The notes under the pieces: generated by a model | What the model was told of the DNA's origin: nothing | The model's input: only the letters and a program-made list of their open reading frames with translations | Databases searched by the model: none | Translations under genes and position numbers: made by a program | Virus record (IMG/VR): IMGVR_UViG_3300025122_000018 | Coordinates: 1 to 55,661 of that record | Source of the DNA: a virus | DNA length: 55,661 nucleotides | Strand: one strand, 5' to 3' | Part shown: positions 27,301 through 53,272 of the stretch, in pieces | Layout of the letters: every line of letters starts with the position of its first letter | Position numbering within the stretch: position 1 is the stretch's first letter

Positions 27301-30300
27301 TTTGAGCGCCTTGGGGGTTCTCTTGAGTTTGCAGAGGGAGCAAAGCTAAAGAAAAACTTTAACTCGGCAATGACTCATGCGATTAACAAGTATTTAGCTA
27401 CCCTTAAAGAAGAACACCGTATGCTTGACTCGGCATATAAGAAAGGTCTTGTGCTCTCCGAGGGTACAAAGCTGAAGGTTGGTGAGAAAAACTTCTACTC
27501 TGGCATGACAAGGAAAGAGTTTCGCTCCTTACTTAAGGAGATGATTAGAGATAACGATGAGACTTGGAAAGTTCTGGTGCCGGAACATGAGCGAGAACTG
27601 TTTGAAACTTGGGTAACCGGAGTAGAGCCACCATCAGTTAAGGCCCGGAAAGCGCGTGAGAAAACTTACTCAAGCCGTCCGGCAGATTGGTTTGATGGGA
27701 AGGTTGTGACGGACAAGGTTAAGGTTACTGTAAATAACGGCATCATTAATAGAGTCATACGAGAACAGGTTGAAGCATCTAAGGATGGTCTGGTTAGTCT
27801 GAAGGATCTCATACGGTCTATCCCAAAACTAGATGAGTTTGAAAACAATGGCTATGTTTCCTTGCTTAATATTTTGAGTGAGAAGGTTGGTAAAGATGTG
27901 CGAATTGGCTGGTTAGAAGATAGCAAGCTGGTTGGAGAGTATAGGCCGAAGCAAGTGGTAGAGGGCGTTAAGCAGCCGAGAAGGGTTCTGATTTCAGACA
28001 ATGCTCCTGATGCTCTTCAGGCACTTGCCCACGAAACGCTTCATGCTGTAACTGTTAATAGATATAGGAACGCAGCTAAGGCTTGGCAAAAGGGAGAGAA
28101 GACAGCCTCATCCCATGCTTCCGACAATCTTAGAAAGCTATTCAACTATGTTGTTGACCGTGCCAAAAACGATCCAGAGCTACTGCTAAAACACGGCATC
28201 GTACAGGGGCAGCCTCTTCGTGATTTCTTAGCGAGTCCAGAAGAGTTTATATCTTATGGGGTGTCTAGTCCTGAGTTTGCTAGGTTTCTAGATAGCATTC
28301 CTTATCTGGCATCCAAAAGAACAAGTGTATTCGATGTGTTCTGGGGCAAGGTAAAGAAACTGTTTGGGCTTAGAAGAAAGGATACAGCTTATAGGGAGTT
28401 GAATCTAATAGTAAGCGAACTTCTTACTGCGAAGGATTCGATTGTAAGAGGGAGAAAGCCCAAGGGCTTTCCGATGGCAGATAGCGCCAAGAGGTTTGAG
28501 AAGCCACCCTCTGTGGAGAGAAGGGGTGTCTTTGATTTTGAGCCGCATGAGAAGGCTCACTGGAACCAAGCAAGAAGCTACTATGATAGGGTAGGTGTTC
28601 TCAAGGGTGTCTCAAGAAAGACTTATCGCACAGCCAAGGACACTACAGCCAAGAGGCATGAGGTTATCGGACCAGCCGCTACCTTTGCGGAGCATGAGGG
28701 CTATCGTCTTTCAGATGTTCTTACTGGTCGTGGCATTAAGATACACAAAAGATTCCAGCTTGATAAGGATCATGGTTGGTACTTGGTTACTCCGCGTCCA
28801 GCAAAGAAGCTTAATCCCGCCAAGGTTAGAGCAGATAAGGCTGATGAGCTTGAAGAGATTATCGAGCCGGTTGAGCCAGTTAAGCCAGTAAGGGGTCGTC
28901 GTGTTAAGTTTAAGGGTGAAGAGGCCGCCCCAGTTAAGCCCACCAAGAAGGCTAAGCACGCCTCTACCGAGACAGCACAAGTTTCTCATGATGTAGATCC
29001 TGTTGTGCCCACGGAGACAAAGGGCCGCCGTGTGAAGCTTAAACCGGGCAAGCCGAAAACTGGTGTTTACCAGCACCGCAGGGGCGAGCTATCTAAGAAG
29101 GGTTTCTTTAGAAGCTCCTATCGTTTAGACGAAACTTACAAGGTAGAGAAGGTTAAAGAAGAATGGGTAGTTAGAAGATTTAACGAAGATAAGTCACTCT
29201 CTTCTGTTGAGGGTTCTCCTGAGTCCTTCTCAACAAGGGGTGAGGCCGCCCGTTGGCTTAAGAGATTTGATGACGAGAGAGGTCTTCCTGAGTGGAAGCC
29301 AGTTACAGTTAAGTGGGACAGGGTAAGGGTTCCCGGCCTCAAGCAAATGCGGCTATCCTTTACAGATCCGAATGGTAATGGTTTATTTTATTTGTCGATG
29401 ACCGACCCATACTCTCCGACTAAGAGAGTCATTAATATTATAGGCCCAGAGGGTGTGGTGGATACGATTAAGCCATCGAAGAATCCCAAGACTGGGAAGG
29501 TGACCCCAGCTACGAAGGGCCGTGCCGCTGAGGCTCTGAAAGAACATCTCGATAATATCGAGGGGAATGTTCCAGATACTCCTGCTGTTTCAAAGTTAAA
29601 GAAGAAGCTTGTAGAGGAGGCGGAAGAGCAGGGCATCATTGGTTCAGACCCACCTATAGTGGAGAGGATGAGTCAGCCAAGAGCAGGTAACTATGACATA
29701 GATGAGCTTCTTGACACTGGATATAAGCAACTAACTCCGGGCACGAAACTTAAGAAGGACGATGTTGTTGCTATCTTTGATGGGAACTCTGCCTCTCCTG
29801 ACGATATGTGGAGGGTTGAATCTGCTTTTCAAACAATGGATGGCCAAGAGATTGGCCTTGTTGCAAGGAATGGCAAGACAACAAGAACACTAGAGACAGA
29901 TGAGCTTGATGATATACAAGTTTACTTCAAGAGAGATGAGGCCAAGACCAAGACTAAGCCGAAGCAGCCGAAGGTTAAGAAGGGGCGTGGAAAGGTTAAG
30001 TTCAAGGAGGCTGTCGAGGAGGCTCCAGAGGTCACACGGGGCGCACTGGAAGATGTCTTTCCCGAAGAGTATATGGGAATGGTTGACGACGCCAAAAGGA
30101 TTAAGAGATCTGGGGGCGCGGCGATCTATCCAACCTACAAGGCACTAAAGGACGAGTGGCTTGAGGTGATAAAGCCACTAATGCCAAAAGCGACTAAGAA
30201 AGAACTAAACGCGAGGCTTAAGGTTGAGTTAACGAAGTCAGGTATAGAAACGAAAGCTAAGTGGCTTGCCTATAGATCGAAATCAATAGATGAGATTGTT

Positions 30301-33300
30301 GAAGAGCCTGTCAAGCATTTAGTTAAGAAGGTCTTGGACGAGGGGCATAGGCCTACTTATAGCAATGCCTACAATGCAGGAGAGAAAGGCGTTTGGTTTA
30401 CGCGATCAGATGGTTCTGAGGGCTTCTACCGTTTATCTGATAACGAACTAAAGGCTTTATTTAAGGAAGCACCAGAGAAAGCAACTACACGCACCTCTCG
30501 CATTAAGTTCAAAGACAAGAAAGCGCCTAAGAAGCCTCAGCCGGGTCCAGACCTACAGCCATCGACTGATATAGATCGAATCTTTATTGAGCCAGCAGTG
30601 GCCAAGGAAGTGAACCTCTATCCTGAGGTGGTGAAAAGTGGTGCTGAAGTAAAGAGGCTTGGCTGGTATCCGTTTGTTCAGAGGAAGGGTACGGTAGATC
30701 CGCTTAGGCAGCTTGAGATAGGCACGGAGTTTTCTGTATGGTCGCAGGGAGAGAAGAGGAATCAGCTTGTTCTTCAAGCTGGTGGAGTCCTAGTAGATTC
30801 AAGGAAAGCCAAAGATTCTGATGAGCTTGTCTTTTTCTTTGAGAGAAACGGGCTTGGCTTTGATGTGAGAGAGTCAGAGCTAAGGTTGTTTCAAGCCGGA
30901 GATCCGTCAAGCACGATGCACGGTGCCGGTAAGAAAGTATTCTTTAAGACACCTCTAACGAAGGTCGCAAAGACAGACCCAGTAAAGATACCAGATACCT
31001 TCGATGCGGCGCTTGCCGGTGATTTCACTGATGGCGTTGTTGCTGGTAAGCTTCGGCCAATTACGGTAGATTCTGCGATTGCCGTCTATCAGGATGGAAA
31101 GCTTGTTGATGGCGGCAGGATTACATCACAGCACGGGGGAGACTTCAAACTAGATACTGGTCGTTCGATTAATGAAAAGGTCTTTATAAAGATTCTTAGG
31201 GGGAAGCACGAAGATAAGAACGTACAGGCTCTTGTTCTTAGGCCAAACAAAACTAGGCAAGCACAGAGGAATAAGGCTGCCTTGATGGATGACCTTGAAG
31301 AGCAGCTTATCGAATACTATGAGCCAGAGCTTGCCCCTCTAACAAGACCAAAGGGAGCGCCAAAACGGAGACAAGGAAAGATTGCTGAATCTGATTTAAG
31401 GCTCACAAATCTTCAGAAATCCATTGATAAAATTGATGGCGAAATGGGCAATCTCAGATCTTGGGTCTGGGCTTACACAAAAGATACGCTTAAGGTAGCA
31501 GACCCCAAAACCGTGGCTGATGAGGTTGTTGATTTGTTTTGGGGAGCCAGAGAGGTTCTTGAAAAACTGAAAGATTATAAGATCACAGCACAAAAGTTTA
31601 ATGCTAATGACATTGAACTTATGGTGGACTATTTACATAACCTCCGCAGATTAATGGGTGGGCTAGACGCACCAGACACGGGGGTATCAACTGTTCTTAG
31701 AGAGCTTATGAGGAGTGAGGCTTTTAAGAGGAAGCTGTATGAGGTTGCCGATTCATCTAAGATTCTTATGAGCACTTCCAGAAGAATAGACTCAATATTA
31801 CCAAGACTAAAAGGACTAACTCCTTTCCATAAGGACATGCACAACACACTTTCTGGTCTACTTAAGTTTGATGAGAAGGCCGTAGAAGGTGCGCTAAGGT
31901 CGTTAGAGACTGGATTCAAATCTGGTTCTCGGTCTAAGTTTCCTGATGTTGGATCGTATGCTATGGCATCAACAGCAGCCAGCAGACAGCAACTAACCGA
32001 GGCTGGGTTCCGCGCTTTCCGTTTGCGTAGGGCGCTCAAGGATATGTCTGATGATGAGGTAGCAGCAACTCTGGCAAAGATAGTAAGCAAGAATAAGGAT
32101 GTTGATCCTATTGTATTCTCTGTTCTTAAGAAGGCATTCGGCAGAGAGGCAAAGAAGATTAAGGCAGTGTTCGGAAGCCCAGACCTATCTCTTGCTAAGT
32201 TGGATAAAGAGATGGAGATTATTAAGAAATCTGTCTCAGAGTACATAGTCCCCCCAAAGATTCCAAAGAGAGTGCCTAAGAAGGCGAGGGGCAAGGCACC
32301 TAAAGAGGAGTCTGGGCTTGAGTCTTTGCAGAAGGATTTGAAGAAAGAACTTAGCAAGACCAAGGCCAAGCTTCCAAAGCTTGAAGAAGGTGCATACTCT
32401 GGTCGGGACTTGGAGAACTGGGAAACCAAGATGATGGCTGAGTTCAATCACTTAACAAAGGACTTAAGCGAGGAAGATACTTTGCTGGCAGTCATGGGGG
32501 TTCTCAAAGAAGCTCCGATGTTTGTGAATAAGGAGACTCACCCTGCGTTAGCAAAGCTTTATCCGGGGCTTATTGGTAGAAGATATACACCTGTGGACCC
32601 AGTTCTTAAACCAGTTATGGATGAAGCCCATGCTATAATTAAGAGATACGAGGCTGAGTATGCTGAGAGGGGCTATACTTGGGCAGCATCACCAGAAAGA
32701 ATAATGAGAGACTGGGGAGTAATAGAGTTTACTCCCCATATCTACAAAGAGATTGATAAGAATATTCTCTACGAGATCCATCGGGGCAGGGTTCGGGCTG
32801 CGGGTTCGGCTGGTGGTCTTGACAATGCTCTGATGACTACTATGGAGGCAAGCCACCGCAGGAAGCTATCTGGTTCTATCTTAGAACTAAAAGCCCTTAA
32901 GAATACTGGTCACGATAAGATTCTTACTGCTGATCCGCTTGAGATATATGCTAGATATTGTCAGGCTAACAGGGCAATGACCAATGAAGATCTCTTAGTA
33001 ACAATGATGGATACGGGTACGGCTCAGGTTTTGTCGGCACAAAGAGCAGCAGATGGTTCTATTGTAAAGACTATAGAACAGGTCGCTGCTGATGGTGATT
33101 GGGTTCCTGTGTTTAACATGAGCAACATCCAGAGAGATGTGAATGTAATGCACCGTGGCAATCTTGAGCAATGGCTTGCGTCCGGCATGACCCCAGAGGA
33201 TGTGGCGAGTTACTTTAAGAATCGTGGTAAGGAAATGATTGGCGGGGTAATGACTGACACCCTGTTCGCCAGCTTTATCAAGAGTTCTCCGCGCATGAGG

Positions 33301-35580
33301 TACTTGAGAAAGACAGAGCAAACTGTTGTTAGGATTAGGGCAGCACAGGCCGCCGCCGGAGAGGAGCTATTTGATCCTATCGCCGTCTATAGTCGTAGGA
33401 TAGAAGAGCAGATGGACGAAGCAGGACGGGTTTGGGATAGGACTCGTAAATCTGAAGTGCCTCCAGATGATCTTAAATTTGTTCGCTTCGAGGAGCTAAG
33501 AGACACGCGGTCGGCTCTTGGTAAAAAGATATTTGAAGATCTTGCTGATGAGGCCAACACCCTTAGGCAGAAGTACGCGACAGATGCTCCTCGCTTAGAG
33601 TGGGACCATCTTAAATATTATTTTGACCAAGATACCCGCTTCTGGCAAACATATATTAAACGCGCCTTCAAAGTAAATATGGAAGAAGTTTTGGATATGG
33701 GGTCTATTGGTAAGCTGGCAGGGTCGGCACCGGTTCAGTATCTTAGGGCAGCACAGGCTTTCTGGAAGACAAGAGTTACAGTAACTTCTGTTGCCTTCTC
33801 AACTCGTAATGCCATTTCAAATACTGTCTCTAATATCTTAGACCTTGGCATTAAGGGTGCGCTAAGTCCCTTTAATCTTATTCTAGGTGGACAGCTATCT
33901 CTTGGCCTTATGATCAAAGAAAGGTACGGCAGCATAGAGAAATACTTCCATCTGATTGATACTGGTGACGACGCTTTCAGGGCTGCCCAGAAACATATAA
34001 CCAAATTCTCTGGCCTGAGAAAGCTTCATGAGAATGGTATTGATTTCAGGAATGGAATAATTCGTCCACTAGATGATGTGCTTGATGACTTCGTGGAAAC
34101 GAATGTTGTTAGCCCTTCCTTTGTTTCGTTCTCAGATATTACTAAGGCTGAAACGGATCTGCTTGAGCAGATGGCTTCTGGTAATGGTGTGGCCCAACTC
34201 CTTGGTAAGAAGATGGGTGGAGTTGACCTAGAAGATGTTGCTCTTTTTGGAATGACCTTCGCCGTTTCGGGGTTCCCTGTCGCGTTGCCTAAGAACTGGG
34301 GCGGAAAGTACCTAGCAAGAACAGTTGAGAATCAAGCAAGGATAACAAACTTTCTTGGTAACTATAGAAGAACCGGGCAATGGGCTGATTCGGTAAACCA
34401 TGTTCATAAGTTCTTGTTTAACTATGGTGACTTAACAAATACCCAGAAGCAAGTGATGAGGCTTATCTTTCCGTGGTTTACATGGAACATAAAGAATGTT
34501 CACTTGCAGTGGAACATGATGCAGAAGTCTCCTCACTTCTATGCGACATTCCACAGGATGATGACAGATGGTGTGCCACAGATATTTGAGGCAACCCAAT
34601 CACAGGCCGAGGGCCGTGGCTATGTGAAGTCAGACCCCTTAGACATGGAGACACTACGCCTGAGAGAGACACACTATATGCACACAATAGGTGTCCCTCT
34701 ACCCACCCTTGAGGGCACTCCATTTGAAAATATTCCAGTACCATACTTGGATAGAAAAGATAAGGGTGAGTTTTTTAAGATGGGTAAGCTGGGTAAGAAC
34801 TGGTTCCCACTCCTAAAGCACGCGAAGCTTCAAGGTCTTGGCCTACCACAAGAAGCCTTTATGAATCAGGTGTCCTTGCTTAGTGGTCTTGTAGACCCAC
34901 AGAACTGGGGCGTGGGTATGCTCTTGCCGGATGAGTTCCTTAAACCAATAGGGCTTAGTGGCAAGACAGCAAGGGCTAGACAGTATTCAGATAGGGCTAG
35001 GCAGTCTAGGTTGTTGGGGGAGGTTCACTTCTTGGCCCGTGTAGCGGTTGAGCAGATGACTAAAAGGCACAGCTTCTACGGTAAAGAGATATCAGAACTA
35101 AATGATGGCCGTCTTGTTAGTGAGATACTGAGGCCACTAGATGCTATACCGCTGGTCGGCGCACCCATGAAGGCTTACCTTGCTGATAGGGCTGGCTTAA
35201 AGCAGTATACCTATTACGATAAGTTCAATAAACAGTGGCGAACTAAGATACATATTGATGGACAGATGAACTATTTGCTTGGACAGTTGCCTTGGATGCG
35301 TAACTTCAGAGATGCGGCTGCTGCTACAGAAATGTTCTACGCAAGCAGAACTGTTCCGACAGAGACTTTGCTTGCCGATGGTGTTCAGGTATCAGACCTT
35401 AGAGAGATTCCATATGCGGCATCGTTGGCTGATGCTCTGTCTGGCATTAATATCAAACAACTTGACCCAGAGCTAATGGCGGCATATGCTCAGTACAGAT
35501 TGGATAAGCTGCGTAGAAAGCAGTTGAGGTCTTTGGGTATTATCAAGGACTTCTCACAATCTTATGTCCCATACAGATAG
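24388..35580 (+). CDS. Giant polyvalent virion-type protein (3730 aa) with HExxH motif
   Basis: One unbroken frame covers a fifth of the genome. Residues 189-227 are Gly/Ala/Val-rich and hydrophobic, a candidate membrane-inserting segment. Residues 415-560 are coiled-coil-like. A zincin motif HETLH lies at 1215-1219 in LAHETLHAVTV. Four basic linker motifs of the form (R/K)(R/K)(V/I)K(F/L)K occur near residues 1502, 1546, 1867 and 2037 and separate small beta-rich modules. Residues 3157-3175 are hydrophobic. FNYGDLTNTQKQVMRLIFPW near 3342 is the style of sequence seen in C-terminal domains of large polyvalent phage proteins. It sits where podoviruses encode their largest ejected core protein, so injection with DNA is likely but inferred. 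I found no convincing RNA polymerase or transglycosylase motifs. Confidence 0.75.
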   Translation: MAEEGSKQAAISSDEGVNQEAFALSRSPIKDTGIPLYPEHAIKSGLIAEDVNSGISSRFSDPVSPSYSIPRIDQTKSDILSGMRHPSQGRTETGAVISTPMARERAHLLFTLAKLKPHLDSGAMSSAGAYATGERGMLTLEELQEAHDPTALEYIGLAFEPFDAPRRAVWGAAAYLGQYLPDPGSLAGDAIQSVVGVVGGLALGTSVGLTEGVWTLGLGATVGAIASLWDDDENEESPSSPIVPGQEAVDGFMEMVENLYDAVATGELYETSKTRIRPNLYADWSRTGIVTGDMLIDAMLTKGQAWELSQDATKAPHLRAFARHVSTDVGRLSYGLLAEFIVDPLWIWGPGKAGSFASRVRYGDDIFHLLGPAAKGASSVQNVARAKRGADALMFNKIVANMVRSTDPKVVESSTAAVAHYGKIAAAQVVDSRNNLEAIAKALQDGGDLGKAVRSQSQRVFDQAEVLSKELIIEGKEGQAARILEIAKQKKILADSIQDAAGQARWLKQQSRMIANEIKTFEKHADNISLSIRAAADARQAGDLSKLVKQKGFLSYHMPFTTKFGYVFKSGPLDNATALLRASPIASKFIDDFSLTGLQAKVDEAAIGLKGDERVPTASEVFAGDPAALLAYQTQRIVQWPAHWAGAFFTGVAATIGSRMIQPITETMSVARYQKQGLVRGIPYLGNKMLIKIQKVNPELWEKQQANITDYLNSFTGLDMKLTTELERLGKKAQEALKIRRKISVKEGARLQRLISTTSDQAEKAELQARLERVMAWNNKKEYSEQDIMLEALDALDRGAKRWHSLSDEVLEVMEELKALRDAFAADPAVAGAKIKFEQGMVSMARFAKGDIDHKAKLLSMLEVINAQMSNVSTFRDLSRSRTHQAILKRVTQLRSLEEGVAGLGVDVLARALEEVKVLKDSGIVDEAIYAEHMLEHLTKVTGTATSARRVLRQFALALGETDGTLALRKLFERLGGSLEFAEGAKLKKNFNSAMTHAINKYLATLKEEHRMLDSAYKKGLVLSEGTKLKVGEKNFYSGMTRKEFRSLLKEMIRDNDETWKVLVPEHERELFETWVTGVEPPSVKARKAREKTYSSRPADWFDGKVVTDKVKVTVNNGIINRVIREQVEASKDGLVSLKDLIRSIPKLDEFENNGYVSLLNILSEKVGKDVRIGWLEDSKLVGEYRPKQVVEGVKQPRRVLISDNAPDALQALAHETLHAVTVNRYRNAAKAWQKGEKTASSHASDNLRKLFNYVVDRAKNDPELLLKHGIVQGQPLRDFLASPEEFISYGVSSPEFARFLDSIPYLASKRTSVFDVFWGKVKKLFGLRRKDTAYRELNLIVSELLTAKDSIVRGRKPKGFPMADSAKRFEKPPSVERRGVFDFEPHEKAHWNQARSYYDRVGVLKGVSRKTYRTAKDTTAKRHEVIGPAATFAEHEGYRLSDVLTGRGIKIHKRFQLDKDHGWYLVTPRPAKKLNPAKVRADKADELEEIIEPVEPVKPVRGRRVKFKGEEAAPVKPTKKAKHASTETAQVSHDVDPVVPTETKGRRVKLKPGKPKTGVYQHRRGELSKKGFFRSSYRLDETYKVEKVKEEWVVRRFNEDKSLSSVEGSPESFSTRGEAARWLKRFDDERGLPEWKPVTVKWDRVRVPGLKQMRLSFTDPNGNGLFYLSMTDPYSPTKRVINIIGPEGVVDTIKPSKNPKTGKVTPATKGRAAEALKEHLDNIEGNVPDTPAVSKLKKKLVEEAEEQGIIGSDPPIVERMSQPRAGNYDIDELLDTGYKQLTPGTKLKKDDVVAIFDGNSASPDDMWRVESAFQTMDGQEIGLVARNGKTTRTLETDELDDIQVYFKRDEAKTKTKPKQPKVKKGRGKVKFKEAVEEAPEVTRGALEDVFPEEYMGMVDDAKRIKRSGGAAIYPTYKALKDEWLEVIKPLMPKATKKELNARLKVELTKSGIETKAKWLAYRSKSIDEIVEEPVKHLVKKVLDEGHRPTYSNAYNAGEKGVWFTRSDGSEGFYRLSDNELKALFKEAPEKATTRTSRIKFKDKKAPKKPQPGPDLQPSTDIDRIFIEPAVAKEVNLYPEVVKSGAEVKRLGWYPFVQRKGTVDPLRQLEIGTEFSVWSQGEKRNQLVLQAGGVLVDSRKAKDSDELVFFFERNGLGFDVRESELRLFQAGDPSSTMHGAGKKVFFKTPLTKVAKTDPVKIPDTFDAALAGDFTDGVVAGKLRPITVDSAIAVYQDGKLVDGGRITSQHGGDFKLDTGRSINEKVFIKILRGKHEDKNVQALVLRPNKTRQAQRNKAALMDDLEEQLIEYYEPELAPLTRPKGAPKRRQGKIAESDLRLTNLQKSIDKIDGEMGNLRSWVWAYTKDTLKVADPKTVADEVVDLFWGAREVLEKLKDYKITAQKFNANDIELMVDYLHNLRRLMGGLDAPDTGVSTVLRELMRSEAFKRKLYEVADSSKILMSTSRRIDSILPRLKGLTPFHKDMHNTLSGLLKFDEKAVEGALRSLETGFKSGSRSKFPDVGSYAMASTAASRQQLTEAGFRAFRLRRALKDMSDDEVAATLAKIVSKNKDVDPIVFSVLKKAFGREAKKIKAVFGSPDLSLAKLDKEMEIIKKSVSEYIVPPKIPKRVPKKARGKAPKEESGLESLQKDLKKELSKTKAKLPKLEEGAYSGRDLENWETKMMAEFNHLTKDLSEEDTLLAVMGVLKEAPMFVNKETHPALAKLYPGLIGRRYTPVDPVLKPVMDEAHAIIKRYEAEYAERGYTWAASPERIMRDWGVIEFTPHIYKEIDKNILYEIHRGRVRAAGSAGGLDNALMTTMEASHRRKLSGSILELKALKNTGHDKILTADPLEIYARYCQANRAMTNEDLLVTMMDTGTAQVLSAQRAADGSIVKTIEQVAADGDWVPVFNMSNIQRDVNVMHRGNLEQWLASGMTPEDVASYFKNRGKEMIGGVMTDTLFASFIKSSPRMRYLRKTEQTVVRIRAAQAAAGEELFDPIAVYSRRIEEQMDEAGRVWDRTRKSEVPPDDLKFVRFEELRDTRSALGKKIFEDLADEANTLRQKYATDAPRLEWDHLKYYFDQDTRFWQTYIKRAFKVNMEEVLDMGSIGKLAGSAPVQYLRAAQAFWKTRVTVTSVAFSTRNAISNTVSNILDLGIKGALSPFNLILGGQLSLGLMIKERYGSIEKYFHLIDTGDDAFRAAQKHITKFSGLRKLHENGIDFRNGIIRPLDDVLDDFVETNVVSPSFVSFSDITKAETDLLEQMASGNGVAQLLGKKMGGVDLEDVALFGMTFAVSGFPVALPKNWGGKYLARTVENQARITNFLGNYRRTGQWADSVNHVHKFLFNYGDLTNTQKQVMRLIFPWFTWNIKNVHLQWNMMQKSPHFYATFHRMMTDGVPQIFEATQSQAEGRGYVKSDPLDMETLRLRETHYMHTIGVPLPTLEGTPFENIPVPYLDRKDKGEFFKMGKLGKNWFPLLKHAKLQGLGLPQEAFMNQVSLLSGLVDPQNWGVGMLLPDEFLKPIGLSGKTARARQYSDRARQSRLLGEVHFLARVAVEQMTKRHSFYGKEISELNDGRLVSEILRPLDAIPLVGAPMKAYLADRAGLKQYTYYDKFNKQWRTKIHIDGQMNYLLGQLPWMRNFRDAAAATEMFYASRTVPTETLLADGVQVSDLREIPYAASLADALSGINIKQLDPELMAAYAQYRLDKLRRKQLRSLGIIKDFSQSYVPYR

Positions 35581-44274: not shown

Positions 44275-44290
44275 CCCCCCCAGCCCCCCC
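44275..44290 (-). other. G7-CT-G7 tract (possible G-quadruplex)
   Basis: On the minus strand the leader of the helicase operon reads seven G, CT, seven G. Each run can supply two G3 tracts, enough for an intramolecular quadruplex in DNA or RNA. It lies between the three-block element and the dnaB start, so it could modulate transcript elongation or strand opening. Homopolymer length may also be an assembly weak point. Confidence 0.5.
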
Positions 44291-44317
44291 TTCGGAAACT
44301 TCCGGGGACAACCAACC

Positions 44318-44380
44318 TAACCCGTCCGGCTCGATTCACCGAAACCGAGGTTCAAAGCCAAAAATCAGCCGCGAGCTAGG
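44318..44380 (-). promoter_or_regulatory. Three-block early element, copy 1 (upstream of helicase operon)
   Basis: On the minus strand: CCTAG with GGC 10 bases in, then GAACCTCGG starting 27 bases after CCTAG, then CGGGTTA with GGGTTA 30 bases after GAACC. Between the last two blocks TCGGTTTC and GAATCGA form a hairpin; AACC and GGTT can pair around it. Copies 2 and 3 show the same spacings with a different hairpin sequence. It lies about 150 bases upstream of dnaB and would direct transcription or leader control of the minus operon. Confidence 0.65.
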
Positions 44381-44387
44381 GTGACCC

Positions 44388-45311
44388 ATGCCTAAGAAAC
44401 CCAGTAGAAGAATCATAAAAGAGAAGTTAAATGAATCTAATGCCTACGCATCTGGTAGGATTAGACCAGAAGATTATGGGACAACCATCGGGCATTGGTC
44501 TTTCTACAGGTACGGGAAAGCTAGAAACAAGAGGATAATAAACCTTGGCCCAGTCATGCTTGGCACCGAAGTGTACCTACTGGGTGCAGCAGTGGGAGAA
44601 TCAGCAGTATTCCTTGGGCTAAACGGAAAGCTATGGAGGCTCAAAGGTGATCGAACAAACCTAAAGTTTGATGTGATTGCTCCGAAGACAGTAGATCCAG
44701 ATGGCCTCAAGGTATGGGCAAGTACTATCTCACAGAAGATTGTAGATGCTCTATCCCCAAAGCTAGAGGTACGAGTAAACAGAGAAACAAACCTACGATA
44801 CAAGCACATGGTTAAGTCTCTTGCCTCTCATAGAATAGAAGAGGCCATATCGTTAGGGTATGAGAGAAGCTTCAGCTACTATGCCAAGTCAATTAACAAT
44901 GATTGGAAAGTAAATGACTTGTTATCCCCACGATTCCCAACCATGAAGCACGCTATCTATGTCGCATTAGTACTAGCAATACCAGCCAAGCAAGCAGCGC
45001 AGCTTGTAGCCGGTGCTGCAATGTCTGAGTACAAGTCTCCTTATATAACAGAAGAGATAGCACTAACCATATACCAACAGGCTGTCTCTCTACTCAGTAG
45101 GCTATGTCCTGAGTGGTGGAACAACGGGGCATTCACACGATGGGAATACATCGGTAGTATAGACAGCCTATTCACAAAGCAATATGCCAACACGATAATC
45201 AATGCAAAGAACTTGGATGTAGATCTTAGCACAGCAGCAGGTATGGTAAGGGACGAGCCGCTGGGCGCCCTGCTCCGCCGCCGTCCGGCGTGGCCGACAG
45301 GCGAGGAGTGA
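44388..45311 (+). CDS. Hypothetical early protein (307 aa)
   Basis: It is the first plus gene right of the divergent region. A weak AGGGTGA lies before the ATG. The N-terminal half is beta-rich and basic (WSFYRYGKARNKRIINLGPV, GTEVYLLGAAVGESAVFLGL). The C-terminal half is helical with Ala-rich hydrophobic segments (AIYVALVLAIPAKQAAQLVA). No catalytic motif or family is recognised. Its last codons lie in a GC-rich inverted repeat that may belong to a terminator. Opposite orientation to dnaB from a shared region suggests early expression, perhaps in replication initiation or regulation. Confidence 0.65.
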   Translation: MPKKPSRRIIKEKLNESNAYASGRIRPEDYGTTIGHWSFYRYGKARNKRIINLGPVMLGTEVYLLGAAVGESAVFLGLNGKLWRLKGDRTNLKFDVIAPKTVDPDGLKVWASTISQKIVDALSPKLEVRVNRETNLRYKHMVKSLASHRIEEAISLGYERSFSYYAKSINNDWKVNDLLSPRFPTMKHAIYVALVLAIPAKQAAQLVAGAAMSEYKSPYITEEIALTIYQQAVSLLSRLCPEWWNNGAFTRWEYIGSIDSLFTKQYANTIINAKNLDVDLSTAAGMVRDEPLGALLRRRPAWPTGEE

Positions 45312-45330
45312 GCCGGTTTTGATTTTTTTT
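45285..45330 (+). terminator. Possible terminator overlapping the end of the 307-aa gene
   Basis: CCGGC (45285-45289) can pair with GCCGG (45312-45316), with a nested GCC/GGC, followed by TTTTGATTTTTTTT. The T-run is good, but the outer stem is short with a long loop, so efficiency is uncertain. It would separate the 307-aa gene from the promoter just downstream. Confidence 0.4.
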
Positions 45331-45331
45331 C

Positions 45332-45359
45332 TTGACGGGTCACGGCAGCGGGTTATGCT
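45332..45359 (+). promoter_or_regulatory. Sigma70-like promoter before the HTH gene
   Basis: TTGACG, a 16-base spacer and TATGCT form a recognisable sigma70 promoter, 47 bases before the ATG at 45406. The 13-mer CGGCAGCGGGTTA at 45343-45355 is identical to 47308-47320 in copy 2 of the three-block element, linking the two kinds of regulatory site. The GAACCT block is not present here at the expected distance. Confidence 0.5.
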
Positions 45360-45405
45360 TCGGGGGTTGCGAATCGACGACAACGAACCGCCATTAGGAG
45401 GCACA

Positions 45406-45669
45406 ATGAAAGACAGAGAAGGGAACTACTTAAGCCCAAAGAAGAGTCACACGCAGAGGATGAGAGCTATGGACTTCGTTCACTTATGGGAATCATCTGA
45501 ATCATTAGATGAGTTCATAAGATATTCTGGGATGAAGAAATCTACAGCTATATCAAGGGCATCTTTATACAGGAAGAGAGGCATTAACTTAAAAAGACAG
45601 ACAGGTAAGGGAAACAGAAGAACACTAGACATCGAACTACTAAACTCAATGACCAAAGGAAATCAATAA
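45406..45669 (+). CDS. Small HTH-like regulatory protein (87 aa)
   Basis: AGGAGG at 45395-45400 fixes ATG 45406; codons upstream in frame lack a ribosome site. Residues 22-60 (FVHLWESSESLDEFIRYSGM, KKSTAISRASLYRKRGINL) form a helix-turn-helix of the type in phage transcriptional regulators, with a basic C-terminal tail. It is preceded by a sigma70-like promoter and begins a run of coupled genes, so it could regulate early genes, for example via the palindrome at 44198. Confidence 0.65.
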   Translation: MKDREGNYLSPKKSHTQRMRAMDFVHLWESSESLDEFIRYSGMKKSTAISRASLYRKRGINLKRQTGKGNRRTLDIELLNSMTKGNQ

Positions 45670-46055
45670 TGAACAAGATCTACGAACAGATATCAATGAC
45701 AGAACCAGAGCTATACCTTATAGCCAAATCTATAATAGAACATTGCGTTGGCAATGATGATGTAAGGACAACCTTCGCCGCCTCTCTAGTCGAGAGACTT
45801 AGCTTCAACCTCAGTAACGACTCGCTTCAACTACTAAGTGATAGGCTTCTCGACATAGAAGCAGCAGATATACTAGCAAAGAAAGCTGCTGATTATTTTA
45901 ATGTAACCAAAGGGGGATACCCCGATCCAACAAACCATCCAGACGGATGGCCAATGGGATATGGTATGAACAAGAGCATTTGGATAGAGCTTATGGATAG
46001 CCTGAAGTATAAGGTTGTAGCTAATAAAAGAGCAGAGGAGTCCAACCATGAGTAG
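45669..46055 (+). CDS. Helical hypothetical protein (128 aa)
   Basis: The start overlaps the previous stop (TAATG). The protein is helical and acidic (MTEPELYLIAKSIIEHCVGN, LQLLSDRLLDIEAADILAKK) with a Gly/Pro-rich loop (GGYPDPTNHPDGWPMGYGMN). No motif is recognised. Its stop overlaps the amidase start by 8 bases, so it may be expressed together with the endolysin. An inhibitor or chaperone of the amidase is one guess. Confidence 0.6.
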   Translation: MNKIYEQISMTEPELYLIAKSIIEHCVGNDDVRTTFAASLVERLSFNLSNDSLQLLSDRLLDIEAADILAKKAADYFNVTKGGYPDPTNHPDGWPMGYGMNKSIWIELMDSLKYKVVANKRAEESNHE

Positions 46056-46806
46056 ATTTATAGACGCAAGGGCCACGCTGCCTCGCCACCCAACTAAGAA
46101 GTTCACAAGACGACCAGTAGAATCTATCTTAGGTGGAGTCATACATCATACAGCAGGTGGAGATGATATAGAGAACACAGCAATGTATCATGTCGGACCC
46201 AATCATGTATCAGCAACAGGCTGTCCTGCTCTGCTCTATACATTCTATATTACTGGACAAGGAGTAATCTATTGGGCAAATGATTTAGAAGATGTCACTT
46301 GGTCACAAGGTGGGCACGGCTCACCAATACCGGGAACGAATCCTAACGCAAACTTCCTAGCGATATGTTGTGCCGGAGATTTCTCGAATACAATCGGGCC
46401 ACAGTTTGCCCAGATATATTCTTTCATCACATTATGGGGGCACCTAGCTGGAACGAGGAAGCTATCTAGATACCCAGACAGCCTATACAATGTGCTCAAC
46501 TGTTCTGTTGAATCCCTATGGGGTCATCACAACTTCGGTAAGCCAGCGTGCCCCGGACAATTTCTGTCCGGCTTGGCAGACACAGTAAGATCTCATATGA
46601 GTATTTGGTGGGGGCTTGAGACAGATGCAGATTGGCAGGATGCACTCAACGGATGGGGTGCCTTCCTCGTTGTCGATGGTATCTGGGGTAGGCTAAGCAA
46701 GGCAGCATTAGTAGAGTTCCAAAGAGATCACGACCTTGTAGCTGATGGTATTCGTGGCCCACTAACGGAGGCGCAATTAATATCTTACTGGAATCCTGAT
46801 GCCTAA
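46048..46806 (+). CDS. N-acetylmuramoyl-L-alanine amidase (endolysin) with peptidoglycan-binding domain (252 aa)
   Basis: It cleaves the amide bond between MurNAc and L-Ala of peptidoglycan at lysis. The amidase_2-type core shows the zinc ligand region GGVIHHTAGG (His33/His34) and HHNFGKPACPG with His160/161 and Cys168. Residues 185-250 form a PG_binding_1-type domain (FLVVDGIWGRLSKAALVEFQ, LVADGIRGPLTEAQL). No signal peptide is visible, so export would need the holin at 35589. Located far from the holin in an early-type cluster, it may be made early and held back. Confidence 0.92.
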   Translation: MSRFIDARATLPRHPTKKFTRRPVESILGGVIHHTAGGDDIENTAMYHVGPNHVSATGCPALLYTFYITGQGVIYWANDLEDVTWSQGGHGSPIPGTNPNANFLAICCAGDFSNTIGPQFAQIYSFITLWGHLAGTRKLSRYPDSLYNVLNCSVESLWGHHNFGKPACPGQFLSGLADTVRSHMSIWWGLETDADWQDALNGWGAFLVVDGIWGRLSKAALVEFQRDHDLVADGIRGPLTEAQLISYWNPDA

Positions 46807-47065
46807 CTTTGTTACGAGCTTTAGGAACAGCAACGGTGCCAACCCTATATTTGAAAGAATGAATGGTTGGTATTTGCCAGCCCGTAACAAGATCATATGC
46901 GTTGGCCATGTACCCAACAAGACTAAACCATGCCTCTACCTCCTCAACAATACCACTAAGGAGATGGAGATACTTGCAACATTCAAAAGCAGAGAGGCAG
47001 CGACAGCAACAAGGATGATACTAAAAGAATTAGGAGAAGGGTTAGCTGAAGGTAAACTAAAATAG
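46799..47065 (+). CDS. Small hypothetical protein (88 aa)
   Basis: It overlaps the amidase stop by 8 bases. The product is a small alpha/beta protein (NKIICVGHVPNKTKPCLYLL, NNTTKEMEILATFKSREAAT) with an Ala-rich helix and a basic C-terminus. No catalytic motif or family is recognised. The segment encoding LPARNKII contains GCCAGCCCGTAA, a string that recurs twice within 320 bases. Confidence 0.55.
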   Translation: MPNFVTSFRNSNGANPIFERMNGWYLPARNKIICVGHVPNKTKPCLYLLNNTTKEMEILATFKSREAATATRMILKELGEGLAEGKLK

Positions 47066-47081
47066 CCAGCCCGTAAATCAT

Positions 47082-47279
47082 ATGCCGATATACGAATACA
47101 GATGTAAGGAGTGTAGCCATAGGTTTGAAAAGCTTATGAAGTATAAAGACCCTATACCTAAGTGCCCAAAATGTGAGGCGAGCCAGCCCGTAAAGCTTAT
47201 CAGCGTTGGCTCTTTTGTTTTGAAGGGTAGTGGCTGGTATAAAGATGGCTATGGGCTGGGGGGCGACGGCAAAAAGTAG
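47082..47279 (+). CDS. FmdB-family zinc-ribbon protein (65 aa)
   Basis: The sequence MPIYEYRCKECSHRFEKLMK and then CPKCE give two CxxC zinc-binding pairs, and the end GSGWYKDGYG is typical of FmdB-family regulators. The family occurs in bacteria and phages; its role in phages is unknown, possibly transcription or redox sensing. No Shine-Dalgarno site is visible before the ATG; the sequence there is AGCCCGTAAATCAT. The three-block element copy 2 begins inside its 3' end. Confidence 0.8.
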   Translation: MPIYEYRCKECSHRFEKLMKYKDPIPKCPKCEASQPVKLISVGSFVLKGSGWYKDGYGLGGDGKK

Positions 47280-47320
47280 CGGTCGAACCTCGGTTTTCGT
47301 GAAAAATCGGCAGCGGGTTA
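47258..47320 (+). promoter_or_regulatory. Three-block early element, copy 2 (upstream of DUF932-like gene)
   Basis: The first block is degenerate but keeps GGC at the same offset. GAACCTCGG begins at 47285, 27 bases after the block start, and GGGTTA at 47315, 30 bases later. TTTTC-GT-GAAAA forms the variable hairpin, flanked by CG pairs. The region downstream (GTCGCCAGAGGTG, then an AACAA-rich leader) also resembles that of copy 3 (GTCGCCAGTGGTG). It lies 61 bases before the ATG at 47381. Confidence 0.7.
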
Positions 47321-47380
47321 GATTCGCTGGTCGCCAGAGGTGCGGCACTGATAGACAACAATAACAACAAGGAAGGAAAG

Positions 47381-48598
47381 ATGATAGAAGCATTAAAGGA
47401 AAGAGTATTGGTAGATTACAGGGCAACACATAAAGGTGCCTACCTATCAACGCTTAAAGTTAGAAGCCGTAAGCTAACAAATCCACTAAGCCTAGAGGAG
47501 CTTGCTCATGCTGTTTCTGCGGTAGAAAAGCATGAAGACCATGAGGATATTGAGAGAGAACTAAAGTTAGTTCAAGTAAAGTTCATTGGTAGAAAAGCTA
47601 TGGGTGTTATCCATGATAGACATGGCAGAACTACAGAGATGCCCTTCACTGAGTCAGCACTACGACAGTATGTTGGTTTCGTTGATAACATTCGCTATGG
47701 TAATATGAGTAAGTGGTGTGAACAGAAAAGCGGAAGAGATATAACATCGGCATTGCTAACAGAACAAGCACTCAAGCAGGTGAATAGACCAGTCCTTGTT
47801 AGGACAAGCCTAAGGGCAGGTGCTGGTAGATGTATTAGAAGTGTTCATGGATCTGGATCAGCGTCATCTTACACCCCATATGGAAACGCAAGACTATTAA
47901 AAGATCTTCTCTCAAGTATAGGAGAGCTTAAGAATTGTATTGTTGCGTCTATGAAAATAACAGACAACTACTTTAGGTGTAGACTATTCGCACCGCAGAA
48001 GGTAGCGCATACTGGGGAGTATATCTATCATAAGCCCATTGATATGGAGCTAAGGATACCAGTACCAGTGATTGATATTAACAACTCAGCTACTGGACAC
48101 TCAGCATTAGAGATTCTACTAGCATTCCTAACGCTGATTTGTACTAATGGTTTAGCGATACCAGATATCCAAACCAAATGGACTAGGCAGCATCGTGGTA
48201 ACACATCTAGACTAAGACATGGTATGCTCGGTGCCTTTGAGTCTGCGTTAGCACAAACATATGGTGTTGCTAATGATATAAGGGCAGCCCACGATATACA
48301 GGTTGCTAACCTATCACAAGTAACAACCCGTCTGCTTAATGAAGCAGCGAAGAGGTATGATGTTGTTAATGATAACTTCATCGGGAAGGTTATTGGCACA
48401 GGTCTTAACGATCCAACCACTCCACAAGACAACAGCATAGCACAGATCGTACAAGCTACCTCTCTCATTGCTCAGACTATGAGGGATGTAAAGAGGGAAC
48501 GAATGGTAGAAGAGATGAGCCATTGGATTCTTAAGAGAGGGCTTGAGTTAGGTGATGAGCACGGTGGTCGTATACCTGTAGTTGTAGGAGAGGCATAG
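47381..48598 (+). CDS. DUF932-like phage/plasmid protein (405 aa)
   Basis: GGAAGGAAAG precedes the ATG. The segment DINNSATGHSALEILLAFLT LICTNGL followed by a His-rich stretch (WTRQHRGNTSRLRHGML) is the signature region of DUF932-type proteins, which occur near recombination and single-strand DNA genes of phages and plasmids and whose biochemical function is unsettled. Overall length fits the family. It starts an early plus operon under the control of the three-block element copy 2. Confidence 0.7.
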   Translation: MIEALKERVLVDYRATHKGAYLSTLKVRSRKLTNPLSLEELAHAVSAVEKHEDHEDIERELKLVQVKFIGRKAMGVIHDRHGRTTEMPFTESALRQYVGFVDNIRYGNMSKWCEQKSGRDITSALLTEQALKQVNRPVLVRTSLRAGAGRCIRSVHGSGSASSYTPYGNARLLKDLLSSIGELKNCIVASMKITDNYFRCRLFAPQKVAHTGEYIYHKPIDMELRIPVPVIDINNSATGHSALEILLAFLTLICTNGLAIPDIQTKWTRQHRGNTSRLRHGMLGAFESALAQTYGVANDIRAAHDIQVANLSQVTTRLLNEAAKRYDVVNDNFIGKVIGTGLNDPTTPQDNSIAQIVQATSLIAQTMRDVKRERMVEEMSHWILKRGLELGDEHGGRIPVVVGEA

Positions 48599-48599
48599 G

Positions 48600-48713
48600 A
48601 TGAAATACAAAAGCAATATAGTAGACGACTTCATTGCCATACTGCTTGTATCTAGCATGGTAGTATGCACTGGCTACTTGTTACTTCAATTTATATGGGG
48701 GTTGTTCCAATGA
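48600..48713 (+). CDS. Tiny membrane protein (37 aa)
   Basis: ATG 48600 lies one base after the previous stop. Residues 11-36 (FIAILLVSSMVVCTGYLLLQ, FIWGLFQ) form one transmembrane helix behind a polar N-terminus. Its TGA overlaps the next start (ATGA), the coupling used throughout this region, which supports it as a real gene. Function unknown. Confidence 0.5.
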   Translation: MKYKSNIVDDFIAILLVSSMVVCTGYLLLQFIWGLFQ

Positions 48714-48886
48714 TTCTAACTACAAGACATTTCATACTAATAGCAGCAGCCATTAAGGAGCTAGATCTTGGTAAGAGAAGCAAGAAGAAAGTCATTGATG
48801 GCTTTATAGACATGTGCTCAGGTGTTAACCCAAGATTTGATGAGGCCTTATTCAGAGCAGCGTGTAATGAGGGAGGCAAGCCATGA
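48710..48886 (+). CDS. Small hypothetical protein (58 aa)
   Basis: ATG 48710 (MILTTRHFI) is favoured because it overlaps the previous stop as ATGA; a longer reading from 48665 has no ribosome site. The protein is helical and basic (IAAAIKELDLGKRSKKKVID) with two cysteines. It is coupled to the next gene by ATGA. No family is recognised. Confidence 0.6.
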   Translation: MILTTRHFILIAAAIKELDLGKRSKKKVIDGFIDMCSGVNPRFDEALFRAACNEGGKP

Positions 48887-49176
48887 TTACACTACACTCA
48901 TATGGATTCAGGTCGTTTAGTCTTAAACTTAACCACCCAAATAGCCCAGAGGTAGAGTATGTTGTTCAGTACAACAATCAGAATCTACCGTGGCGCATAT
49001 GGAAGAAGAACTATCGCATTGCTGAGAGCACGTTAGATTATATGATAAAGAAGACTATTGCTGGACATACAGTTCGTAGTCTTATCAAGCAATGGGTCAA
49101 AAGGATAGAGGCTGTATCATGTCATCGTCCAATAGAGGGTGGCACGACAGCACTCTTTATATATGGAGGTGCATGA
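48883..49176 (+). CDS. Small hypothetical protein (97 aa)
   Basis: An ATGA overlap couples it to both neighbours. The N-terminal half is beta-rich (TLHSYGFRSFSLKLNHPNSP, VEYVVQYNNQNLPWRIWKKN). The C-terminal half is basic and helical (YMIKKTIAGHTVRSLIKQWV). It may bind nucleic acid, but no motif proves it. Confidence 0.6.
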   Translation: MITLHSYGFRSFSLKLNHPNSPEVEYVVQYNNQNLPWRIWKKNYRIAESTLDYMIKKTIAGHTVRSLIKQWVKRIEAVSCHRPIEGGTTALFIYGGA

Positions 49177-49370
49177 TGCCCGATGACTATAACAATTTCT
49201 ACTACACCTGTGAATGCGGAAGGACATACCATTCTGCTGAAGGGTGTACCTGTGAACAGTGTGCAGAGGAGGGATGTGAGAACAGAGTATTGTATGATGA
49301 TCTCTGTGATGAGTGTGAAGATAACCGTTACCAAAAAGCCATAAACAATAATGAAACAGAGGAAGAATAA
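49173..49370 (+). CDS. Cys-rich zinc-binding miniprotein (65 aa)
   Basis: ATGATG at 49173 gives two possible starts; the first couples with the previous stop. It contains paired cysteines in CECGRTYHSAEGCTCEQC and a later CENRVLYDDLCDEC, enough for two zinc sites, and ends in an acidic tail. Such miniproteins often bind host enzymes. It is immediately followed by the GHKL ATPase with no gap and could work with it. Confidence 0.65.
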   Translation: MMPDDYNNFYYTCECGRTYHSAEGCTCEQCAEEGCENRVLYDDLCDECEDNRYQKAINNNETEEE

Positions 49371-50714
49371 ATGAATGATGTAAAAGAAACAATAGAGCTA
49401 ACCATTACCCCAGACTATGTTGATTGGAATACATGGGAGGCAGTCAGAGAGTTCTTACAGAATGCTAAGGATGCTCATGACAGGGGGTATAGTGGCACCG
49501 TAGACTATAACGAAGAGACAAGAAGGCTTATCATCTGCAATGAAGGCGTGGTCTTACCTAAGTCAAGCCTTCTCTTGGGGATGGGTACTAAGAAGGATGA
49601 TGACTCGCAGATAGGACAGTTTGGTGAGGGATATAAGCTCGCCTTAGGTGCCCTATGTAGGCTGGATAAATCAGTTGTGATTAGAACAGGAACACAGGAG
49701 TGGTCGCCATCTATCGTAAAGTCAAAGCAATTTGGAACAGATGTTATCTCTATTGACATCGACTATCTTATGAAAGACCATCATGGTACATTTATATGTA
49801 TCAATGGTATTACTGTAGAAGAATGGGAAGAGATTAGCAATAATGTTTTATGGTTAGATCCGGTAGACTCAGCCTTGTCAATCACAACCTATGACATTGG
49901 TGAATCTAGTGGAGACTTCCTGTTCTCTTGCGATAATGGTGACATCATAAGGAATGGGTCAGGTAACCTGTATTGTAAGGGCATCTATGTCGGCCCGTTA
50001 GGGACATCTGGCCTTAAGTATGATTACAATCTTAACAATGTAAAGCTAGATAGGGATAGACGAATAGCAAATAACTATGATGCTACCTCTAGAATTAGAG
50101 ATGTGCTTAGTGAAATGTCTTATGAAGAGATGATGGAGTTCGCTACCCTTGAGGAGTTTATTGGTGGGGCTAAGGATATCTGTATGATAGCTGATTGGTG
50201 GTGTTCAGCCGTCCATTGTCACTACTATACTGCGTTCATGGAGGAGTACGGTGGTGATTCATATCCTTACCATTATCATGACAACAGAGCAGACATAGAA
50301 GACATTGGCCTAACACCTGTTGAAGTACCTAATGTCTTTCTAACAGTAATGCAGAGGAGTCCGCTTGATTCGATTGCTCTCCTAAGGCGTGAATACTATA
50401 GCAACTATAGTATAATGGAACACGAAGATATAGAAGAAGAAGAGCGCGAAGTTCTTAACACAGCACTAATAATCTGCATAAAGCACAACGAATACCTTGC
50501 AGGTAGAGCAATTAAGATAGCTTCGTTTCCAGAGAAGGGCGTTAAATCCCTAGTGGTAAACTCAGAGAATGACTATGAGGCCAATCCAATAGTCGTAAAC
50601 ATAGAGGCTATGAGATCAGGGCTTGGGTCCACAATCTGTGCGCTTATGCTAAACGGAGACTACCTATCAGTAATGACAGACCTAGTAGACAATCACCTTG
50701 ATACTATCAAGTAA
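49371..50714 (+). CDS. GHKL (Hsp90/MutL/histidine-kinase fold) ATPase (447 aa)
   Basis: An N-box EFLQNAKDA (Glu27, Asn31, Asp34) binds Mg-ATP. The G1-like element is NEGVVLP (57-63) and the G2 lid is GQFGEG (82-87). These are the Bergerat-fold motifs of gyrase, Hsp90, histidine kinases and MutL. The remaining 330 residues are acidic and not recognisable as a histidine kinase, topoisomerase or MutL domain. Its function is unknown. It is stop-to-start with a zinc miniprotein upstream and a membrane protein downstream. Possible roles are chaperone-like remodelling or counter-defence. Confidence 0.8.
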   Translation: MNDVKETIELTITPDYVDWNTWEAVREFLQNAKDAHDRGYSGTVDYNEETRRLIICNEGVVLPKSSLLLGMGTKKDDDSQIGQFGEGYKLALGALCRLDKSVVIRTGTQEWSPSIVKSKQFGTDVISIDIDYLMKDHHGTFICINGITVEEWEEISNNVLWLDPVDSALSITTYDIGESSGDFLFSCDNGDIIRNGSGNLYCKGIYVGPLGTSGLKYDYNLNNVKLDRDRRIANNYDATSRIRDVLSEMSYEEMMEFATLEEFIGGAKDICMIADWWCSAVHCHYYTAFMEEYGGDSYPYHYHDNRADIEDIGLTPVEVPNVFLTVMQRSPLDSIALLRREYYSNYSIMEHEDIEEEEREVLNTALIICIKHNEYLAGRAIKIASFPEKGVKSLVVNSENDYEANPIVVNIEAMRSGLGSTICALMLNGDYLSVMTDLVDNHLDTIK

Positions 50715-50854
50715 TGGGGGTGGCCTTAAAGGTGATACTATTAACCGCTCTATACTCTTGGTTCTTAATCTTCTGCTTAAGGGTCGGAGTAGTAGCAGCA
50801 CTACCAGCAACAATCATGTATGTACTATTCATAAAGGAACTAATCAATGACTAA
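50714..50854 (+). CDS. Tiny membrane protein (46 aa)
   Basis: The start overlaps the GHKL stop (TAATG) and its end overlaps the next gene by 8 bases. The whole chain is hydrophobic apart from the termini (ILLTALYSWFLIFCLRVGVV, then ALPATIMYVLFI), giving two possible membrane helices. Tight coupling supports it as real. Function unknown. Confidence 0.5.
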   Translation: MGVALKVILLTALYSWFLIFCLRVGVVAALPATIMYVLFIKELIND

Positions 50855-51161
50855 TAACAAGACAACACTTGAGAGTATTCTCAGAGACATCCAAACTATT
50901 AACACACTAGCCCAAGAGGTTGGGACAAAGGTGGCTATGCTAAAGAACAAGGAAACTCTTAGTGAGTTAGATGATCCTCGTATTGACCAAAGCCATAGAC
51001 CTGCTGAACAAGCAGTAGCTAGGGCAGAGAACAAGCAAGCCCGTAGCTTACTTGGTGGGAGAAGGAATAGAAAGGTATCCTTCAAGGCAGACAGCCAAAC
51101 AGAAGAGACTAGGGAACCAAGCAGTGATGTTAGTAATATGATTAACGATATGTTCGTCTAA
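50847..51161 (+). CDS. Charged helical protein (104 aa)
   Basis: The N-terminal half is a helix or coiled coil (TTLESILRDIQTINTLAQEV, TKVAMLKNKETLSELDD). The C-terminal half is basic then acidic and probably disordered (RSLLGGRRNRKVSFKADSQT). No family is recognised. It ends the DUF932/GHKL operon, followed by a terminator. Confidence 0.6.
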   Translation: MTNNKTTLESILRDIQTINTLAQEVGTKVAMLKNKETLSELDDPRIDQSHRPAEQAVARAENKQARSLLGGRRNRKVSFKADSQTEETREPSSDVSNMINDMFV

Positions 51162-51184
51162 TAACTATCGGCAGATAATCATGG

Positions 51185-51231
51185 AGGGATAATGCTTACT
51201 AATATAGTAGGTGTTATCCCTTCTTTGCTTT
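51185..51231 (+). terminator. Intrinsic terminator of the DUF932/GHKL operon
   Basis: AGGGATAA (51185-51192) pairs with TTATCCCT (51214-51221), enclosing a second stem TACTA/TAGTA with a three-base loop. The tail TTCTTTGCTTT is moderately T-rich. Position just after the operon's last gene and before copy 3 of the three-block element fits a terminator-promoter junction. Confidence 0.65.
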
Positions 51232-51316
51232 GTCGGCCCGTATAAGAGCGCCCGTAATAAATCAAGGAGATTAAATCAGTGTTGTTATAGCACAACAACC
51301 AATCAAACCCACGAAC

Positions 51317-51379
51317 CCTAGTCGCTGGCCGATAGCTCAGGTTGAACCTCGCTTTTCGTCCGGCATAGCGAACCGGTTA
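51317..51379 (+). promoter_or_regulatory. Three-block early element, copy 3 (upstream of the 51431 operon)
   Basis: CCTAG at 51317, GAACCTCGC at 51344 (27 bases on) and CGGTTA at 51374 (30 bases on) repeat the spacing of copy 1 exactly. The hairpin here is TCGCT paired with AGCGA, different bases from the other copies but the same position, and AACC can pair with GGTT around it. It lies about 50 bases before the ATG at 51431. Confidence 0.7.
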
Positions 51380-51430
51380 AGTTGTCTTGTCGCCAGTGGT
51401 GACGTCAACAAACAACAACAGGGAGTGAAC

Positions 51431-52433: not shown

Positions 52434-52619
52434 ATGATAGCCCGTAACTATTTACATGTAAGGAGTGTTAACCAATATAGGCTGGTTACCTATGATACCC
52501 TAGTTCATGGGGGTGACTGTCGAATAGTGACGGTTGAACCTATGTTTCCCAAAATAATGGGAAAACGTGCTACTAATAGTCGTGACCACAATTCAGTGGT
52601 TGCAAACAAAGGAAGATAG
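52434..52619 (+). CDS. Small hypothetical protein (61 aa)
   Basis: GAGGAG lies directly before ATG 52434, one base after the previous stop. The product is basic with alternating hydrophobics (YLHVRSVNQYRLVTYDTLVH, CRIVTVEPMFPKIMGKRATN). Inside it, bases 52536-52565 resemble the GAACCT block of the three-block element and hold a TTTCCC/GGGAAA inverted repeat. The function is unknown. Confidence 0.55.
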   Translation: MIARNYLHVRSVNQYRLVTYDTLVHGGDCRIVTVEPMFPKIMGKRATNSRDHNSVVANKGR

Positions 52620-53107: not shown

Positions 53108-53149
53108 AACCCAACGCCAGGACGACTACTGGTGTTGGGTTCTTTTTTG
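53108..53149 (+). terminator. Strong rho-independent terminator of the right plus operon
   Basis: AACCCAACGCCAG pairs with CTGGTGTTGGGTT (13 bp, one G-U pair) around an 8-base loop, followed by CTTTTTTG. This is the clearest intrinsic terminator in the window and ends the early plus transcripts. Confidence 0.9.
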
Positions 53150-53272
53150 TCTCGACATTATCCTATAGGTTACCCTAGCTCACGGCTGGGGCGGCTCGCC
53201 CCCCCGAGGCGTCTTTCTATCTTAAACAATACCTCTCTCCAAAATTTTTTCTTGATTTCAGCTACTTTTTCC
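53150..53272. other. Short non-coding stretch with GC-rich dyad
   Basis: CCTAGCTCACGGCTG at 53174-53188 matches, with one mismatch, the first block of the three-block element copy 1 (15 bases), but the GAACCT and GGGTTA blocks are missing. A CTCG-C7-CGAG dyad follows. On the minus strand the same bases would be translated if the putative frameshift at 53284-53289 is real. Confidence 0.4.

Follow-up and report, generated by a model that had tools for sequence, protein, structure and literature searches.

A three-block sequence element in an uncultured phage genome as a probable promoter family with a candidate activator site

The window (the whole 55,661-nt stretch of viral DNA analyzed here, from an IMG/VR virus record) contains three copies of a short element composed of spaced sequence blocks (Table 1). 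The positions and fixed spacing reported in the original prediction were borne out, with GAACCTCG and CGGGTTA/CCGGTTA found at identical distances in copies 1 to 3. When the window was scanned with the combined pattern KTYSRACCKMGSTTTY-N18-GGTTA, the matches with no mismatch were exactly these three copies, and no fourth place in the window was retrieved with up to three mismatches allowed. Three matches arose in none of the shuffled sequences (0/100); thus, the set is not a chance expectation. Copies 2 and 3 also share the described GTCGCCAG(A/T)GGTG block and AACAA-rich leaders. The CCTAG block, by comparison, is confined to copies 1 and 3 and missing from copy 2; CCCTAG has 21 occurrences across the window, approximately as base composition predicts. 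A degenerate further copy lies behind a promoter-like sequence, TTAACC-17-TATGAT (52468-52496). In a search of 2.9 million viral contigs, a near-identical pattern matched only two contigs, L002 and L003, which are known relatives already used in designing the pattern.

Table 1. Coordinates of the element copies and associated features in the window
Feature	Position	Strand	Sequence	Remarks
Copy 1 of the element	44380-44318	-		
Copy 1, dyad	44343..44352	-	AACC-TC-GGTT	Center -40.5
Copy 1, proposed -10 box	44314..44319	-	TAGGTT	GGTTA block; 148 nt from dnaB start codon
Copy 1, short hairpin near +1	44287..44308	-	TCCCCGGAAGTTTCCGAAGGGG	P 0.008
Promoter of p45319, sigma70 type	45332..45359	+	TTGACG-N16-TATGCT	Overlooked in the original prediction
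p45319	45406..45669	+		HTH-like protein of 87 aa; conserved in every relative covering the region
Copy 2 of the element	47258-47320	+		
Copy 2, dyad	47286..47295	+	AACC-TC-GGTT	Center -40.5
Copy 2, proposed -10 box	47319..47324	+	TAGATT	56 nt from p405 ATG
Copy 2, hairpin or operator near +1	47330..47346	+	GTCGCCAGAGGTGCGGC	
Copy 3 of the element	51317-51379	+		
Copy 3, dyad	51345..51354	+	AACC-TC-GCTT	One mismatch; center -40.5
Copy 3, proposed -10 box	51378..51383	+	TAAGTT	
Copy 3, near-palindrome or hairpin near +1	51389..51403	+	GTCGCCAGTGGTGAC	P 0.07
Degenerate further copy	52497..52560 (about)	+	CCCTAG, GGTTGAACCTATGTTT, TTTCCC/GGGAAA hairpin	Overlooked in the original prediction
Relic	53165-53188		CCCTAGCTCRCGGCTG	Overlooked in the original prediction

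The element had been described as a set of covarying hairpins. We compared five cores (copies 1 to 3, the L002 orthologue of copy 1, and one core from L003), and the claim is not supported, with neither covariation nor unusual stability in the cores. The outer AACC/GGTT pairing exists but varies by no more than a single A-U to G-U change, with no two-sided change in the five sequences, and RNAalifold returned a covariation term of +0.12 kcal/mol. The inner stems do not form one covarying helix, as copies 1, 2, and 3 use different registers; the TTTTC/GAAAA stem quoted for copy 2 would enclose a 2-base loop, and a shifted stem is possible. Against shuffled interiors, core fold energies were not lower in any of the three copies (P 0.32, 0.70, and 0.42), and the longest perfect inner stem of copy 2 was somewhat long (P 0.03). 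DNA folding z-scores for the three copies were 0.5, -1.0, and -1.3. The covariance-model search proposed as a check, run with the five cores, recovered its own members and, beyond these, just one gapped site in L017 with an E value of 0.35; a sequence-only model recovered the same members. No Rfam family matched the element at the gathering threshold.

These results bear directly on one alternative, in which the element would be a structured leader or antitermination RNA whose hairpins modify RNA polymerase from the nascent transcript. The put sites of HK022 and nut sites of lambda are short, hairpin-forming elements beside early operons, and the copies here likewise sit ahead of operons and are followed by short hairpins at similar positions. 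The copies are unlike those sites in covariation and Rfam matches, as given above, and in that the core would lie upstream of the predicted start on a promoter reading and so be absent from the RNA. The ordinary stability of the cores also argues against a leader, and we consider this reading improbable.

Relatives of the window were found by scans with dnaB and the Cas4-type exonuclease. DNA identity to the window is 96% for L002 and about 72% for L003; in further contigs, the exonuclease and DnaB proteins are about 55-62% identical to those of the window. The gene order common to the relatives is p405 ... p307 - [XRE-type HTH gene] - dnaB - p41508, with the XRE gene not found in the window. 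Phage records yielded no DNA match and only distant terminase and primase matches, Roseobacter phage CRP-7 was too distant for comparison, and no relative of dnaB was found in GTDB genomes. In the searched collection, the phage family has no close annotated relative.

Promoter-like sites occupy homologous places in these relatives. Upstream of p405 they carry TTGACA-N16/18-TACATT (N17-TAGTAG in L012) with almost unchanged spacing to the ATG, the interval from the -10 box to the ATG being about 47-51 nt, compared with 56 nt for copy 2. TTGACR-N17-TATCNN or a similar sequence precedes the XRE and p41508 genes, and one relative record has two members of its own promoter family. Upstream of the p45319 orthologue, L003 carries the core as TTGACG-N16-TACGTT; the p45319 promoter of the window lies at the corresponding place, likewise 46 nt before the ATG, and shares the 13-mer CGGCAGCGGGTTA with copy 2, where none would be expected by chance. 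Because of these sites, we take GGTTA to be GGT joined to the first bases of TANNNT. Each of the five cores has NNT directly after GGTTA, which places a TANNNT hexamer at a fixed position in the direction of the gene. A TTGACA-like -35 box 16-18 bp upstream was not found in copies 1 to 3 (2-3/6 matches, as in random sequence); the L003 copy and the p45319 promoter match at 5/6 positions. With a -10 profile built from the relatives, the four window sites fall within the top 0.6% of positions, a ranking in which only the flanking bases are independent evidence, as the training sites were picked for TTGAC and TA. GGT or GGC directly precedes TA in 11/16 of the relative promoters used, and this GGY may be partly a repressor half-site signal. 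There are 23 occurrences of GGTTANNNT in the window. Those that are intergenic, correctly oriented, and no more than 160 nt from an early gene are copies 1 to 3 and the p45319 promoter; one more intergenic occurrence, at 35919 (+), precedes a small ORF that is not part of the early region. The -10 hexamers are imperfect, which we count against a promoter reading.

The cores share a dyad, RACC-NN-GGTY, centered at -40.5 when numbered from the -10 box. The strongest symmetry common to the cores is ACC-NN-GGT at this center, with 17/20 arm matches. A dyad near -40 to -44 at the place of the -35 element, as at class II or Mor-type promoters, is present. The dyad is short and perfect over 10 bases only in copies 1 and 2, and its conservation, seen in five related sequences, argues with no more than moderate strength for symmetry. 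Across copy 1, about 14 of 43 bases are substituted in L002 relative to the window, with no indel and with identical flanks. L002 retains ACC--G-TTT and GGTTA at their fixed distance while the -35 columns are changed, and its counterpart of the dyad, GACC-GA-GGTT, keeps the ACC/GGT arms. A -10 box with an upstream operator can mimic an inverted-repeat hairpin.

The spacing and key bases are retained at three window loci and in L003, and also in L002 although many bases around them are substituted. This weighs against the copies being now-functionless leftovers from duplication of an XRE-gene 5' end and promoter. Copy 2 does correspond to the XRE start region of L017 over 33 bp at 88%, but we regard the remnant explanation as very improbable. 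In L017, the AACCTCGGTTTTCG block is antisense to the beginning of the XRE gene, with 24 additional bases between it and GGTTA, so coding constraint may have contributed to the conservation of the block.

Taken together, we consider it probable, judging from sequence comparison, that the copies are promoters for the host RNA polymerase that carry an activator dyad. In GGTTA, the final TA would open a sigma70-like -10 box that GGT borders on the upstream side (GGT-TANNNT), and the 5' block GAACCTCGGTTT would represent the dyad overlapping the place of the -35 element. A phage-encoded dimeric activator would bind the dyad and recruit sigma70 RNA polymerase, such that the dnaB, p405, and p51425 operons are turned on together, after the immediate-early genes. 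From the positions of the -10 boxes, we infer start sites near 44307 (-), 47331 (+), and 51390 (+), at which transcripts would begin with a short hairpin or would have an operator just downstream of +1. Most of the promoters have a hairpin, such as GTCGCC-AGT-GGTGAC, that begins close to the predicted +1; apart from that of copy 1, these hairpins are individually weak, and they could be operators or structures at the 5' end of the mRNA. Of the readings offered in the original prediction (a promoter, an operator, or a structured leader), the relatives favor a promoter combined with an operator and not a covarying-hairpin element.

This architecture has parallels. At class II activated bacterial promoters (e.g., CRP at -41.5), a dyad overlaps the -35 region; the copies are alike in this respect and unlike in site sequence. 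In the phage Mu middle promoter Pm, a Mor dimer dyad centered at -43.5 replaces the -35 element, and a UP-element stretch lies just upstream (PMC4390567). Mu Pm and the window copies both have such an upstream stretch, and the copies, like Mu Pm, would pair sigma70 RNA polymerase with an inverted-repeat activator site instead of a -35 box. They differ in the sequence of the site, its center (-43.5 versus -40.5), and the number of operons (one versus three here), and no Mor-like match was found among the window proteins scanned. T4 middle promoters (MotA/AsiA) also keep the -10 box, replace the -35 element by a phage-specific box, and serve many operons (PMC2988021), in which they resemble the copies. 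The MotA box has a TGCTT consensus centered at -30 and is bound by a monomer, compared with the dyad at -40.5 here; no such box is present at -30, where the copies are variable. The element is undescribed as a sequence family within the searched collections and not as an architecture. Most likely, it represents an early/middle promoter family that is new in sequence and ordinary in kind, from a poorly known phage family. It provides a concrete promoter class, predicted start sites, and a candidate activator site for an uncultured phage family.

The small, conserved gene p45319 may encode the activator. Its protein is predicted to fold into three to four helices, and the matches obtained were weak and for the most part to HTH regulators; p45319 is a candidate at most. 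The fuller proposal is that the p45319 family would supply a dimeric activator at RACC-NN-GGTY, replacing the -35 contact and driving a replication/recombination regulon whose site and promoter change quickly between close relatives. We put this forward tentatively and consider it unlikely in that full form.

Alternatively, the promoters could be repressor controlled, with the dyad and GTCGCCAGTGGTGAC-type sites serving as repressor operators and not as an activator site. In the relatives, an XRE-type HTH gene is oriented divergently to dnaB, and symmetric ATAGCC-NNN-GGCTAT sites occur within their promoters. The near-palindrome GTCGCCAGTGGTGAC of copy 3 resembles the GCCAGTGG spacer of the relatives' p405 promoters and could therefore be an operator. 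In contrast, no XRE gene was found in the window, and copies 1 to 3, having no -35 box, would be weak promoters in the absence of an activator. We consider repressor control unlikely.

A promoter for a phage RNA polymerase, whether T7-like or of the N4 virion type with hairpin promoters, would fit the hairpins of the original prediction, and a 3730-aa protein is encoded in the virion gene block (24388-35580). Neither this protein nor an 846-aa protein matched Pfam or PHROGs, though, and the window, from a record that may be incomplete, gave no RNA_pol (PF00940) match under conditions in which the control phage CRP-7 was positive. The stems also differ in position and loop size. We consider a phage polymerase very improbable. 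Two other candidates were dropped: attC-like sites (RYYYAAC...GTTRRRY), as the 5' side does not fit, and ECF-sigma promoters (GGAAC...GTT), given a spacing of 25 here versus 16-17.

Several additional features were observed in the relatives. Upstream of dnaB in L010, L012, L013, L014, and L017, the layout is that of a bidirectional promoter: dnaB and the divergent XRE gene each have a promoter-like site, the two sites point toward one another, and their -10 boxes, on opposite strands, overlap (e.g., L013:2233-2280). The promoters of p41508, which encodes an Erf-like annealing protein, contain GCC-NNN-GGC dyads, such as ATAGCC-NNN-GGCTAT, between the -35 and -10 elements (L010:8763, L012:8798, L013:4250, and L017:6259); these dyads are perhaps operators of the XRE repressor. 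Tandem units of about 45 bp (GAAACGATGCAACGGTACCC...) lie upstream of dnaB in L014 and L013, those of L014 containing GTTTCACTATATTGAAAC inverted repeats. A very stable hairpin, GTCGCGAAA/TTTCGCGAC (DNA z -5.6), is found at L003:4090-4160 (-), upstream of the p405 orthologue, which is the place of copy 2 in the window. Finally, at window positions 53147-53200, a promoter-like TTGTCT-18-TACCCT lies ahead of a strong GGGGCG/CGCCCC hairpin and of CCCTAGCTCACGGCTG, which resembles copy 1. The promoter-like site points into a stretch whose likelier ORFs are on the minus strand and could possibly specify a small or antisense RNA.
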